The notes beneath the pieces are model-generated. The model saw only the letters and a list, made by a program, of their open reading frames with translations. It was not told the origin of the DNA and did no database searches. Of a DNA stretch of 64,000 nt, positions 22,147 to 29,731 are shown piece by piece. Origin of the DNA: Desulfarculus baarsii DSM 2075 (GTDB lineage: Bacteria > Desulfobacterota > Desulfarculia > Desulfarculales > Desulfarculaceae); assembly GCF_000143965.1 (NCBI RefSeq), contig NC_014365.1, positions 248,001-312,000 of the forward strand, written 5' to 3'. Every line of letters begins with the position of its first letter. Positions within the stretch are counted from its first letter, which is position 1. The position numbers and the translations under genes are program-made.

Positions 22147-23742
22147 CTACTTGCGGTGAGACAGGACGCCGTCGCCACGCAGGCGGAAGCGGTCCAGGCT
22201 CTTGATAACGTAAACGGCGTCGGGGCCGGCGACGTCGACGGGAATGCCCTCGCCGTAAACCTCGCCCTTGTCCTCGCGCGCTTCTTTTTGGGCCATGGCC
22301 GCGGCCATTTTTTCGCGCTCGTCGCGGCGCTGGCGGCGCAGGGCCTCCAGATCGGCCTCGGCGGCGGCCTTGGCGGCGGCTTCAGCCTTGGCTTCGGCCT
22401 CGGCTTTGGCTTTGGCTTCGGCTTCGGCGGCGGCCTTGGCGGCGGCTTCAGCCTTGGCCTTGGCTTCGGCTTCGGCCTTGGCGGCGGCTTCGGCCTTGGC
22501 CTTGGCTTCCATCTCGGCCTTGGCCCTGGCCTCGGCGTCGGCGGCGGCCGGAGCGGCGGCGGCCGGGGCCGGGGCCGGAGCGGCGGCAGCCGCGGGCGCG
22601 GCGGCAGCCGCGGGCGCGGCGGCAGCCGCGGGCGCGGCGGCAGCCGGAGCGGCGGCGGCAGGCTTGGCGGCCGGAGCGGCGGCAGGCTTGGGCGCGGGCG
22701 CGGCGGCGGCAGGCTTGGCCGGGGCCTTGGCGCCGGGGATCAGGGCGGCCTTGGGACGATCGGAGGCCACGCGGGCGGCCGCGGGGGCGCGGTCGGCCAT
22801 CATGCCGTCGATCATCTTCTTGACCGTGGCCACCGAATCGGGGTGACGCAGGATCAGGATGTCGCTGCCAGCCAGCAGGTAAGCCGTGGCCGCGGCCACT
22901 TCCATGAACACGCCGCGTTTGGCGTTGTCGCCCAGGTTGGCGGCGGCGGCCTCCTCACCGGCGATGTTGGCTTCCTTGGATTTCCAGATCTCGTTGCCGA
23001 CGTTGTTGATCATGGGCATGGTCAGCTTGTCGTCGTCCTGGAGCAGGGCGGCCATGCGCAGGCGCTCCATCACCGAGTAGCTGTACTCCATGCCGTAGCC
23101 CAGGCCGCCGGTGGTCGGGTCGACGACGACGCGATCCAGGGGCACGCCCAGGTTGCCAAGCAGAATGTTGAGCTGCTTGGCCAGGTTGACGTCGATGGGG
23201 CTGGAGGAGATGACCTGATGCTTGTAGGCCAGACAGGCCGCGCCGATCTGCTTGTGGTTGCTTTCCTCCACCGGGCCCAGGAGCAGGTTCTTGCCCTCGA
23301 AGTCCTCGGCGATTTTCTTGAGCACCACCGCGTCCTTGGCGCCGTTGGCGCTGCCCCAGACGATCACCGGCACGCTGACCGCGCCCAGGACCTTGCCCAC
23401 GACCGCGCTGGCCTGCTCGGCCGGAGCGTCGTCACCGTTGGGGTCGGTGGATTTGAGCTGAACGACGATGGCGTCCGCGCCGTACTCCTCGACGCATTTT
23501 TTGGCCCAAGCGGCCGGATCGCCCAGGACGCCCTTGAAAGGCGCCGCGCAGGCCTCGGCCCACTCGGTCGGCTCCATGTCCCACACTTCCATGGCCACCA
23601 GCGGCCGGTTGGGCATGCTGCCCTCGAAAATGTGGAAAGGATAGCAGTTCTCGCCACCAATTTTGGCAATCTTGTCGCCTTGACCGACGGCGACTTCCCT
23701 GATTTTTCCGGAGTAGTCGACTTTGGTCACTTCAAAGCCCAC
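22147..23742 (-). CDS. acsD: Corrinoid/iron-sulfur protein small subunit with long C-terminal extension
   Basis: A 531-residue protein; the first 325 or so residues are the TIM-barrel small subunit of the corrinoid iron-sulfur protein (PFHIFEGSMPNRPLVAMEVWD, then VVDPTTGGLGYGMEYSYSVMERLRMAALL). AcsD proteins are normally about 310-320 residues. Here about 200 extra residues follow: an Ala/Pro-rich linker, a charged Ala/Lys/Glu helix-forming stretch like TolA, and a final conserved motif KSLDRFRLRGDGVL. GTG 23742 was chosen because GGGAGGGAG lies upstream; an in-frame TTG seven codons earlier lies within that leader. It is the first gene of the acs operon. Confidence 0.92.
   Translation of the reverse strand: MGFEVTKVDYSGKIREVAVGQGDKIAKIGGENCYPFHIFEGSMPNRPLVAMEVWDMEPTEWAEACAAPFKGVLGDPAAWAKKCVEEYGADAIVVQLKSTDPNGDDAPAEQASAVVGKVLGAVSVPVIVWGSANGAKDAVVLKKIAEDFEGKNLLLGPVEESNHKQIGAACLAYKHQVISSSPIDVNLAKQLNILLGNLGVPLDRVVVDPTTGGLGYGMEYSYSVMERLRMAALLQDDDKLTMPMINNVGNEIWKSKEANIAGEEAAAANLGDNAKRGVFMEVAAATAYLLAGSDILILRHPDSVATVKKMIDGMMADRAPAAARVASDRPKAALIPGAKAPAKPAAAAPAPKPAAAPAAKPAAAAPAAAAPAAAAAPAAAAAPAAAAAPAPAPAAAAPAAADAEARAKAEMEAKAKAEAAAKAEAEAKAKAEAAAKAAAEAEAKAKAEAEAKAEAAAKAAAEADLEALRRQRRDEREKMAAAMAQKEAREDKGEVYGEGIPVDVAGPDAVYVIKSLDRFRLRGDGVLSHRK
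22340..22735 (-). repeat. Low-complexity repeats encoding the AcsD linker
   Basis: Within acsD two repeat blocks are visible. From about 22580 to 22648 an 18-base unit (GCGGCGGCAGCCGCGGGC on the plus strand) is repeated three times exactly plus a partial copy, encoding Ala/Pro. From about 22340 to 22530 irregular 6-base steps encode Ala-Lys-Ala-Glu runs resembling the TolA helix. Confidence 0.85.
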
Positions 23743-23860
23743 AGCAACTCCCTCCCGCTGCAAAGTGATTCATCAACATCGCCTTGGCGCGGTCACCATT
23801 CGCAGGGCCTCCCCCGGCCGATGTGTTCCGGGGGTGCGAAAAGATGGCGCGTTATGTGCA

Positions 23861-26418: not shown

Positions 26419-26778
26419 GCGGCCGCAATGTGGAAAACCGCGCCGCCGGCCGGGCGGGCGGTGGAAAGCCCGGAGTGGAAGTTGAAAACTCCGGGCTATT
26501 TTTTTGCTTTGCTTTCGAGGCGTTATGTTGGTTTTCCACATTTATACATTCATTACTTCCACTACTAATTTCTTAAAGGAAAATTAATATTAGTTCTTAA
26601 GGGGGGCGGGCCGAAAAAACGCGGGCAAACAAGGGCGGGAAAGGGTGAGCCTCGATCAACAAGTTGATATCACGAAATTCTTTGGCTTGAAGGGGCGCTT
26701 GCGTTGGGCTGAAATTTCTGCTTTAATGAAGCCGCGGGCCATGAGGTGCGGACATTTTTGCCAAAGGGATGGGACGGG
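26419..26778. other. Candidate origin region between dnaA and dnaN
   Basis: A 360-base gene-free gap that becomes AT-rich around 26530-26600. DnaA-box-like nonamers are TTTTCCACA at 26532-26540, its complement at 26429-26437 and TTATACATT at 26542-26550. No perfect TTATCCACA box is present. Position beside dnaA and dnaN, and parS sites elsewhere in the window, support an origin here, but the box evidence is thin. The gap also contains the dnaA terminator and the dnaN leader. Confidence 0.4.
26467..26506 (+). terminator. Terminator after dnaA
   Basis: A perfect 10-bp stem (AGCCCGGAGT and its complement) with an 11-base loop is followed by ATTTTTTTGC. Confidence 0.88.
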
Positions 26779-27924: not shown

Positions 27925-27970
27925 AAACGGCGCGGCCGGAGCGATTGTCTCCGGCCGCGTTGTTTGTTTG
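27925..27970. terminator. Bidirectional terminator between dnaN and the binding-protein gene
   Basis: A perfect 11-bp stem, CGCGGCCGGAG and its complement (27931-27959), is flanked by AAAAAA on the left and TTGTTTGTTT on the right, so it can stop transcription from both convergent genes. Confidence 0.88.
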
Positions 27971-27981
27971 GCGACGTCCGT

Positions 27982-29106
27982 TCAGCGCATGTCAAAGGGA
28001 TATGGAATCAGTTCGGCCACGGTGGGCTGGATGATCTTGCCGTCGGGGCCGCGCATGATCACCTGGGCCCCGCGGTTGAATTCGTAGATGAGCTGGCGAT
28101 CGACGGCCGAGGGCGCGGCCAGCGCGCCGCCGGGCAGGACGTTGACGACGGCCTTGATGTCGGTGTCGCCGGCGCTGACGGCCTTCAGGACGGCGGTGGT
28201 CAGGGCGGTGGCGGTCAGGTTGTAGAGGGCGTTTTCGACGTTGGCGCCGCTGTGGATGACCCCGGCCCCGCTGAGCACGGCCGCCCCGACCTGGAATTTG
28301 GAATATGGCGCGTAGGCCATGCGCGAGGCCTTGGTTGCGGCCTCGATCAGGCTTTTGATCTCTTTTTCCTCGAGCTTGGGCACGAACCAGCGGCGATAGA
28401 TGCGCTCGAAGCGGCCGTCTTGCTGGATGGCGGCCAGGCCCTGGCTGATGGCCCTGGCCAAGTCGGGGCGATCGCGGGCGATGAGGTAGTAGATATTGAT
28501 GACTTGGATAGGCGTGCCCACGGCGCTGATGTTTTTGTAGCCCTGGTTTTTGATGAAAAAGTGGCCCGCCCGCCCGGCGATGACGCAGGCGTCGGCCCGG
28601 CCGTCGTTGAGGGCTTGCAGGGCCTGGGGCTCGTTGTCGAAAAGCAGCAGGTTGGCCTTGGTCTTTTTGGCCAGGAGCTGCTGGTAGAGTGAGCCGCGTT
28701 GGGTGGCCACGGTGCGGCCGTCCAGGTCGGCGATGGTGCGTATTTTGGACGAGGCGGCGGTGAAGATGCGCACGTCCAGCTCGCAGGTGGGCCGATCGGG
28801 GAAGAGCAGGTCTTTCTCGCGTTGGGGCGTCTTGGCCGCGCCGGAACTGAGCTGGACGTTGCCAGCTTTGAGCTGGCGCTGAATCTCGTCCCACGGCCCG
28901 GGCCGCATGATCAGGTTGAATCCGCTGCCTTCCAGGGCCTGTTGCAGCACATCTATCTCGAAGCCCTTGGGCTGGCCGCCCTCGACGTAGGTGAAGGGCG
29001 GGAAGGCGTTGTCAAAGGCGTAGATGACCTCGCGCTTGCCGGCGATGGCTGGCCCGGCCCAGGTCAGCAGGATGGCGGCGAGAAGCAGGGCGATCGTCTT
29101 TTTCAT
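27982..29106 (-). CDS. Periplasmic solute-binding protein fused to an inactive cytidine-deaminase fold
   Basis: A 374-residue exported protein. A signal peptide (MKKTIALLLAAILLTW, cleavage near AIA-GKR) leads into a family 3 periplasmic binding domain (about residues 25-255: YAFDNAFPPFTYVEGGQPKG). Residues about 260-374 align with cytidine deaminase: AYAPYSKFQVGAA, GANVENALY, LKAVSAGDT and VAELIPYPF. The zinc ligands and catalytic Glu are lost: CAE becomes TAL, and PCGAC becomes PSAVD. The nucleoside-contacting Phe and Asn-x-Glu residues remain. Catalysis is thus unlikely and nucleoside sensing or binding is inferred. GGAGG precedes ATG 29106. No transporter genes are adjacent. Confidence 0.85.
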   Translation of the reverse strand: MKKTIALLLAAILLTWAGPAIAGKREVIYAFDNAFPPFTYVEGGQPKGFEIDVLQQALEGSGFNLIMRPGPWDEIQRQLKAGNVQLSSGAAKTPQREKDLLFPDRPTCELDVRIFTAASSKIRTIADLDGRTVATQRGSLYQQLLAKKTKANLLLFDNEPQALQALNDGRADACVIAGRAGHFFIKNQGYKNISAVGTPIQVINIYYLIARDRPDLARAISQGLAAIQQDGRFERIYRRWFVPKLEEKEIKSLIEAATKASRMAYAPYSKFQVGAAVLSGAGVIHSGANVENALYNLTATALTTAVLKAVSAGDTDIKAVVNVLPGGALAAPSAVDRQLIYEFNRGAQVIMRGPDGKIIQPTVAELIPYPFDMR

Positions 29107-29468
29107 GGCCTGGCCTCCGGTTTGTCGTGTTTTTTTGATTGGAGTATGAATCATCGGCGGCCGAGGGCCAAGGGCGTTTTTGGCAGGCGGTTCGACCCTG
29201 GGCGATAATGTTGAAATATTTATCGTTTATTACATCGTTATATAGGAGTTTTTATCTATTTAAATTTTTTTTGCTTTTCTGATATAGCAGCGCAATATCC
29301 ATTGATTATCAAATTGCCCACCGATTAACTGTTTAATTAAACTGATCAATATTATGAAACAAGCTTGCGTTTAAGTTTGCTTTTCCCGTGAATAATCGCT
29401 TGTCAGAATGCTGGCCAACGGCTATGTTTAATTTGATAATTATTATCGAATCTTCTGGGAGAAAGCAC
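29107..29468. other. AT-rich intergenic region with divergent promoters
   Basis: About 360 bases, much more AT-rich than the surroundings, between the divergent binding-protein gene and the Cys-rich small gene. It holds GATAAT/ATTATC-type elements (29203 onward and 29435-29447) but no recognisable gene. It probably carries both promoters. Confidence 0.6.
29435..29447. promoter_or_regulatory. Fur-box-like palindrome
   Basis: GATAAT-T-ATTATC is a perfect 6-1-6 palindrome as in Fur-type operators. It lies 22 bases before the start of the Cys-rich small gene. Confidence 0.45.
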
Positions 29469-29672
29469 ATGGCCGCTGAATGCGAACTTCTAGCAAAATG
29501 CGGGTTTTTCAAGAAATACGCCGAGAGCAAGGATCTGGCCTGTCGGGGGTTTATCCGGCAATATTGCCGCGGCGATGGGCAAGCGAGCTGCAAGCGCAAG
29601 GAATATCGTCAAAAGCACGGCTCCGCGCCTTCCGACGACATGATGCCTTCGGGCCAGTTCATGAGCGCCTGA
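29469..29672 (+). CDS. Cys-rich small protein
   Basis: A 67-residue soluble protein with five cysteines (in ECELLAKCGFF, DLACRGF, QYCRG and SCKRKEY), an aromatic-basic middle and a PSDDMMPSGQF end. Such spacing suggests a metal or Fe-S site. The pattern is remembered as a small conserved protein of sulfate-reducing and related deltaproteobacteria, but no function is known. ATG 29469 follows GGGAGA. A Fur-box-like palindrome sits directly upstream, hinting at iron or metal control. It is transcribed alone and followed by a terminator. Confidence 0.72.
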   Translation: MAAECELLAKCGFFKKYAESKDLACRGFIRQYCRGDGQASCKRKEYRQKHGSAPSDDMMPSGQFMSA

Positions 29673-29683
29673 GGCCTTTTTCG

Positions 29684-29731
29684 GCGCGGCCGGCGGCGTG
29701 TTGAACGGGCGCTTGGCCGCGCTTTTTTTCG
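29684..29731 (+). terminator. Terminator after the Cys-rich gene
   Basis: GCGCGGCC pairs with GGCCGCGC across a 23-base loop and is followed by TTTTTTT. The loop is long, so strength is uncertain. Confidence 0.55.

Follow-up and report, generated by a model that had tools for sequence, protein, structure and literature searches.

What role could a cytidine deaminase (CDA) fold play in an apparently exported protein once the residues for catalysis have been lost? This question is raised by a gene of the sulfate-reducing bacterium Desulfarculus baarsii DSM 2075 that lies in a 64,000-nucleotide stretch of the genome (NC_014365.1, positions 248,001 to 312,000), which we refer to as the window. 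An earlier sequence-only reading of this locus had described an exported solute-binding protein (SBP) fused to a CDA fold that has lost its zinc ligands, and had proposed that the inactive domain serves as a periplasmic ligand-binding module. Judging from the residues that are kept and lost, the CDA tail probably serves in binding or assembly and not as an enzyme.

Gene structure and locus

The fusion is encoded by a single gene whose features are collected in Table 1. GC3 is 0.87 in the SBP half and 0.89 in the CDA half, and codon usage and adaptation are uniform across the fusion. A strong terminator is located directly past the stop codon. The continuous frame, the uniform codon usage, the ribosome-binding site, and this terminator rule out a frameshift or a fused-gene artefact. 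As read from the sequence, the first 22 residues comprise a basic start, a hydrophobic core, and an A-I-A cleavage motif, and they lack a lipobox Cys.

Table 1. Features of the SBP-CDA fusion gene, with coordinates given as positions in the window and residues numbered along the fusion protein
Feature	Coordinates	Strand	Basis
Whole gene, 374 aa: signal peptide, SBP_bac_3 domain, and non-catalytic CDA domain	27982..29106	-	ORF and domain profile matches
Ribosome-binding site GGAGG, 7 nt 5' of ATG	29114..29118	-	Sequence
Sec signal peptide, residues 1-22 (MKKTIALLLAAILLTWAGPAIA)	29041..29106	-	Read by eye from sequence
SBP_bac_3 domain, residues 23-243, sensor-kinase type	28378..29040	-	PF00497, alignment
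CDA-fold domain, residues 244-374, non-catalytic	27985..28377	-	Profile, PDB, and model matches
NVENALY (289-295), retained ribose-contact motif	28222..28242	-	Alignment; contacts from PMC9897663
TAL (300-302) where active CDAs have CAE; loss of first zinc Cys and of catalytic Glu	28201..28209	-	Alignment
PSAVD (332-336) where active CDAs have PCGAC; loss of the other two zinc Cys	28099..28113	-	Alignment
F371, retained equivalent of CDA Phe125/126	27994..27996	-	Alignment; PMC9897663
Intrinsic terminator, 11-bp stem and T run, common to convergent dnaN	27931..27959	-	Sequence

The neighbours of the fusion gene are dnaA, dnaN, gyrB, and genes for a thioredoxin-like protein, a PAS/GAF histidine kinase, CheW, and an NtrC-type regulator. 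No transporter gene, including any for an ABC permease or ATPase, is present among the neighbours examined.

Several other features of the window are recorded here in their own right. An AT-rich intergenic island (29200-29700) separates the upstream side of the fusion gene from the thioredoxin-like gene, and GC content is 0.44 in 29000-29499 compared to about 0.64 around it. This island contains no DnaA-box match, and its promoter-like matches sit on the strand opposite the fusion gene. The dnaA-dnaN spacer (26429-26540) carries two TTTTCCACA DnaA-box-like sites next to a GC dip and is a candidate origin region. Farther away, the minus strand of 22147-23763 encodes a CdhD-type CO dehydrogenase/acetyl-CoA synthase delta subunit (PF03599). 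The same ORF continues through about 150 low-complexity residues (Ala/Pro, then Ala/Lys/Glu) and a further C-terminal segment, and this C-terminal extension is unusual for that enzyme.

The C-terminal domain has a CDA fold

Residues 248-321 match two CDA Pfam models, both above their cut-offs, and the NF004064 "cytidine deaminase" model is matched at 90.6 bits (cut-off 74). The match to TIGR01354 (3.7e-26, 91.9 bits) covers positions 2-123 of the 126 in that model and falls under its curated cut-off of 113.65 bits. Searches of the PDB matched the B. subtilis and mouse CDAs at 5e-21 to 1e-20. Furthermore, a structural model of the domain has a pLDDT of 95 and Z scores of 20-22 to CDA crystal structures, including that of mouse CDA with bound cytidine. 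Because this model was built as a monomer on an alignment of active CDAs, it leans towards the CDA fold, and we therefore read it as compatibility with that fold and not as independent proof. In the model of the entire protein, the SBP half, mostly with a pLDDT below 70, is unreliable because the alignment lacked SBP rows.

The Pfam, NCBIfam, PDB, and structure matches rule out chance similarity, and the C-terminal domain is confirmed as a true CDA fold of the tetrameric type. The sequence-only reading had assigned the C-terminal third of the protein to this family and had suggested a profile search and a structure prediction as checks; both agree with the assignment. Outside the active site, the domain is unremarkable for a CDA, with a mean identity to active CDAs of 38.7% (set median 42.5%). 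Its tip branch is the longest in the CDA tree, and its root-to-tip distance is no outlier.

The SBP half resembles the input domains of sensor proteins

PF00497 matches residues 28-241 (1.8e-23, 83.2 bits against a cut-off of 26.4). Together with the signal peptide reading and the CDA profile matches, this result upholds the earlier description of an exported SBP joined to a CDA fold. The best profile match of the SBP half is a solved sensor-protein domain (3h7m, 2.1e-80), and its closest relatives are the input domains of long sensor proteins, in ORFs of 600-1700 aa. From an alignment to GlnBP residues, we take R96 to be the carboxylate-binding Arg and A177 to occupy the place of the amino-group Asp, such that the fusion keeps the former and lacks the latter. 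All 20 sensor-type relatives in the alignment likewise keep the Arg and have no Asp at the A177 position. By these sequence features, the SBP half is placed in the histidine-kinase sensor clade.

When considered as an amino-acid ABC transporter SBP, the domain has an incomplete Arg and Asp ligand pair and its gene does not adjoin ABC genes. The label of solute-binding protein therefore stands as regards the SBP_bac_3 family, but the domain is unlike an ordinary amino-acid transport SBP. Because a sensor-clade SBP without this Asp is encoded with no adjoining transporter, an orphan receptor role appears more likely than transport. The chain carries no transmembrane segment or kinase domain and ends with the CDA domain. 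A BMP-type nucleoside-binding lipoprotein (PF02608) is absent from this genome, and thus no link to nucleoside import was found.

The catalytic site has been selectively dismantled

The replacement of CAE by TAL and of PCGAC by PSAVD, with removal of all three zinc Cys residues and the catalytic Glu, had been noted from the sequence and was reproduced by alignment. The zinc ligand positions hold T300, S333, and D336, and the catalytic Glu position holds L302. Arg56 is likewise lost, as CAER reads TALT (300-303) with T303 in its place.

These residues bear directly on whether the protein could still be a cytidine deaminase, as annotation by NF004064 would name it. Although the protein exceeds the cut-offs of NF004064 and of two Pfam models, it falls under that of TIGR01354 and has neither a zinc ligand nor the catalytic Glu, both of which are kept by every readable full-length relative. 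Deaminase activity is thus extremely improbable, and an active enzyme is ruled out on residues. The annotation is a trap in which NF004064, whose cut-off is loose, and Pfam give a catalytically dead protein the name of cytidine deaminase, and it would credit the genome with a reaction that is probably impossible by this route. A secreted deaminase of the polymorphic toxin type was also rejected, as the domain belongs to the wrong clade and lacks the HxE/CxE and CxxC active site by which the deaminase toxin family is defined (PMC3482391).

An initial set of 71 GTDB relatives was chosen by exact peptides, and conservation was therefore recomputed on 33 CDAs from the same phylum that were found by HMM. 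The fusion protein keeps 21 of the 29 columns that are conserved at 80% or more in this set. All six active-site columns are changed (C300, E302, R303, C333, G334, and C336), compared to 2 of the 23 other conserved columns, where both changes are conservative (S/T279 and I/L367). For this difference, Fisher p = 6e-5, a value that describes one sequence and assumes that columns change independently. A larger, search-biased CDA set gives changes at 5/5 active-site columns and 1/29 elsewhere. The six active-site changes require at least 11 nucleotide substitutions, and hence the loss was not a recent single hit. On this evidence, the pattern is one of a retained fold and selectively dismantled catalysis rather than of general decay.

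The same counts weigh on the idea that the domain is an evolutionary leftover, in which an SBP gene acquired a CDA gene at its 3' end that was then inactivated and is slowly decaying without a role of its own. Such a history would fit a protein that was found once in about 1,500 sampled genomes and forms the longest tip in the CDA tree. However, we consider it improbable given that the changes cluster at active-site columns (6/6, against 2/23 of the other conserved columns), that at least 11 nucleotide changes accumulated there without comparable erosion of the remainder, and that the frame, codon usage, ribosome-binding site, and terminator are all intact. The fused type is known from one sequence, and no dN/dS estimate is possible.

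Metals and redox state differ between the periplasm and the cytosol, and a residue with a side-chain oxygen stands in for each lost Cys (T300, S333, and D336). Both observations would suit an altered site that holds a harder metal or another ligand, with the pocket retuned to a non-nucleoside molecule or to other chemistry. This possibility seems to us quite improbable, as the general acid/base Glu is now Leu (L302) and the ribose and base contacts that are kept point to a nucleoside-like ligand.

Substrate-contact residues are retained

In a CDA crystal structure into which substrate was docked, the ribose is held by Asn42, Glu44, Ala46(D), and Tyr48(D), the base O2 by residue 54, and the N4 side by residue 24; Phe126(B) lines the pocket of the neighbouring subunit, and each active centre is built from three subunits (PMC9897663). 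The fusion retains F271, N289, E291, A293, Y295, A301, and F371, which are the equivalents of CDA F24, N42, E44, A46, Y48, A54, and F125. The earlier claim that the sugar contacts are kept is accurate for N289 and E291, whereas F271, which had been counted with them, corresponds to a residue at the base/N4 side (PMC9897663). Retention extends beyond the residues listed in that reading to A293, Y295, and F371, whose equivalents in active CDAs come from neighbouring subunits. The sequence thus retains the elements that make up a nucleoside pocket in the tetramer.

The dead domain might alternatively be an oligomerisation scaffold only, which holds the SBP domains together as a tetramer and has no ligand of its own. 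Since three subunits contribute to each active centre (PMC9897663), many of the retained residues (the NxEN and AxY motifs and the terminal F) have a second role at the interface. The CDA fold is predicted to be intact, and a loss restricted to the catalytic site would fit a scaffold equally well. However, the exact retention of N289 and E291 (ribose) and F271 (base) exceeds what a strict scaffold would need, and we judge this alternative, the strongest of those considered, to be unlikely, although not strongly so. At the level of sequence, the retained residues would be compatible with ligand binding and with tetramer packing alone.

Distribution of the fusion

The fusion is the sole TIGR01354 match in its genome, where three other PF00383 matches are present and neither a second copy nor an active Cdd of the TIGR01354 type was found. 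CDA-like matches occur in 6 of 63 genomes of the class; apart from the fusion itself, the loci that were read keep the zinc ligands, and none are SBP fusions. TIGR01354 is matched in 33 of 395 genomes of the phylum, and every full-length CDA domain read from these keeps C/H-A-E and PCGxC. The sole exception among the phylum CDA domains occurs at locus L146 (G355:C166:6500-8200), where a 321-aa ORF comprises two CDA-like domains; the first has HAE and PCGxC, and the second, a partial match, lacks these motifs. At another locus (L147/L133, G139:C20), an intact CDA occupies residues 183-307 of a 311-aa stop-to-stop frame whose upstream 180 residues may be non-coding.

A full-length query revealed no second SBP-CDA fusion in the 395 phylum genomes. 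None was found in three further genome sets built around other centres (398, 398, and 327 genomes), which are soft negatives given that there was no fusion-level positive control. Likewise, plasmid records contain no such fusion, and all 71 loci from the exact-peptide GTDB scan are CDA-only. Divergent fusions could escape these searches, as the genome search scored only a handful of candidates in each genome and the GTDB scan required exact peptides. Scans of viral contigs returned nothing for the SBP half or the CDA half. An SBP relative of the same family in genome G089 (L079/L148) lacks a CDA tail and lies away from any dnaN locus, and thus no ancestral locus was found.

Nothing relevant to an SBP-CDA combination appeared in the literature searched. 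The sequence-only reading, which could not recall such a combination having been described and proposed a search for the architecture across genomes, was correct to the extent that about 1,500 sampled genomes yielded no second case. The fusion is apparently a variant assembled from two known families, and it is a singleton among the genomes sampled, which represent four groups.

Proposed function

The explanation that we favour, although only tentatively, is that the protein is a non-catalytic, exported, tetrameric binding protein of the receptor type whose CDA pockets bind a nucleoside or a similar molecule. The protein would be soluble after export. Its CDA module would still form a homotetramer that carries four SBP domains, and the three-subunit pockets would bind a pyrimidine nucleoside or similar compound without turnover. 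The SBP (Venus-flytrap) domain would bind a second ligand, probably one bearing a carboxylate, and, in place of a co-encoded ABC permease, a sensor or transporter partner whose gene lies elsewhere may read out ligand occupancy. The nucleoside-binding module proposed by the sequence-only reading is therefore plausible and, from the retained residues, partly supported. A more specific proposal is possible but doubtful, namely that a tetrameric exported pseudo-CDA binds extracellular pyrimidine nucleosides unhydrolysed and is coupled to four Venus-flytrap domains, creating a two-ligand sensor with an architecture not previously described.

The protein is a clear-cut example in which a nucleoside-salvage enzyme was stripped of its catalytic site only and placed outside the cytoplasm within a binding protein. 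If nucleosides are bound, it would show how an enzyme fold comes to serve as a module of an extracellular receptor and would suggest nucleoside sensing in sulfate reducers.

Comparison with known systems

The CDA half is most readily compared to homotetrameric Cdd (TIGR01354/NF004064; B. subtilis 1jtk and mouse 2fr6), with which it shares its fold (Z 20-22, 38-44% identity) and the substrate-contact residues outside the zinc site. However, the fusion lacks the zinc Cys residues, the catalytic Glu, and Arg56, and it places the domain behind an exported SBP, whereas ordinary Cdd is a free-standing cytosolic enzyme. The SBP half has the same GPW and Arg signatures as the SBP_bac_3 domains of sensor kinases (3h7m-type, BvgS/EvgS Venus flytraps) and likewise lacks the amino-group Asp, but it carries a CDA domain and has no transmembrane segment or kinase attached.

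Three other systems offer partial parallels. One half of the dimeric CDA of the E. coli type (TIGR01355), of which L146 is an example, likewise has a CDA fold but no zinc ligands, although this degenerate half shares its chain with an active half that the fusion does not have. MltF, in which SBP_bac_3 is joined to a lytic transglycosylase, provides a precedent for a periplasmic SBP_bac_3 domain fused to an enzyme-fold domain, and its NCBIfam model weakly matches the fusion protein; unlike the CDA half, the C-terminal domain of MltF is an active and unrelated enzyme. Finally, ADAT3 and the inactive half of CDADC1 are pseudo-deaminases that keep a deaminase fold, perform no catalysis, and support an assembly. 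These proteins are cytosolic or nuclear partners of an active deaminase, whereas the D. baarsii protein is fused to an SBP and apparently exported.
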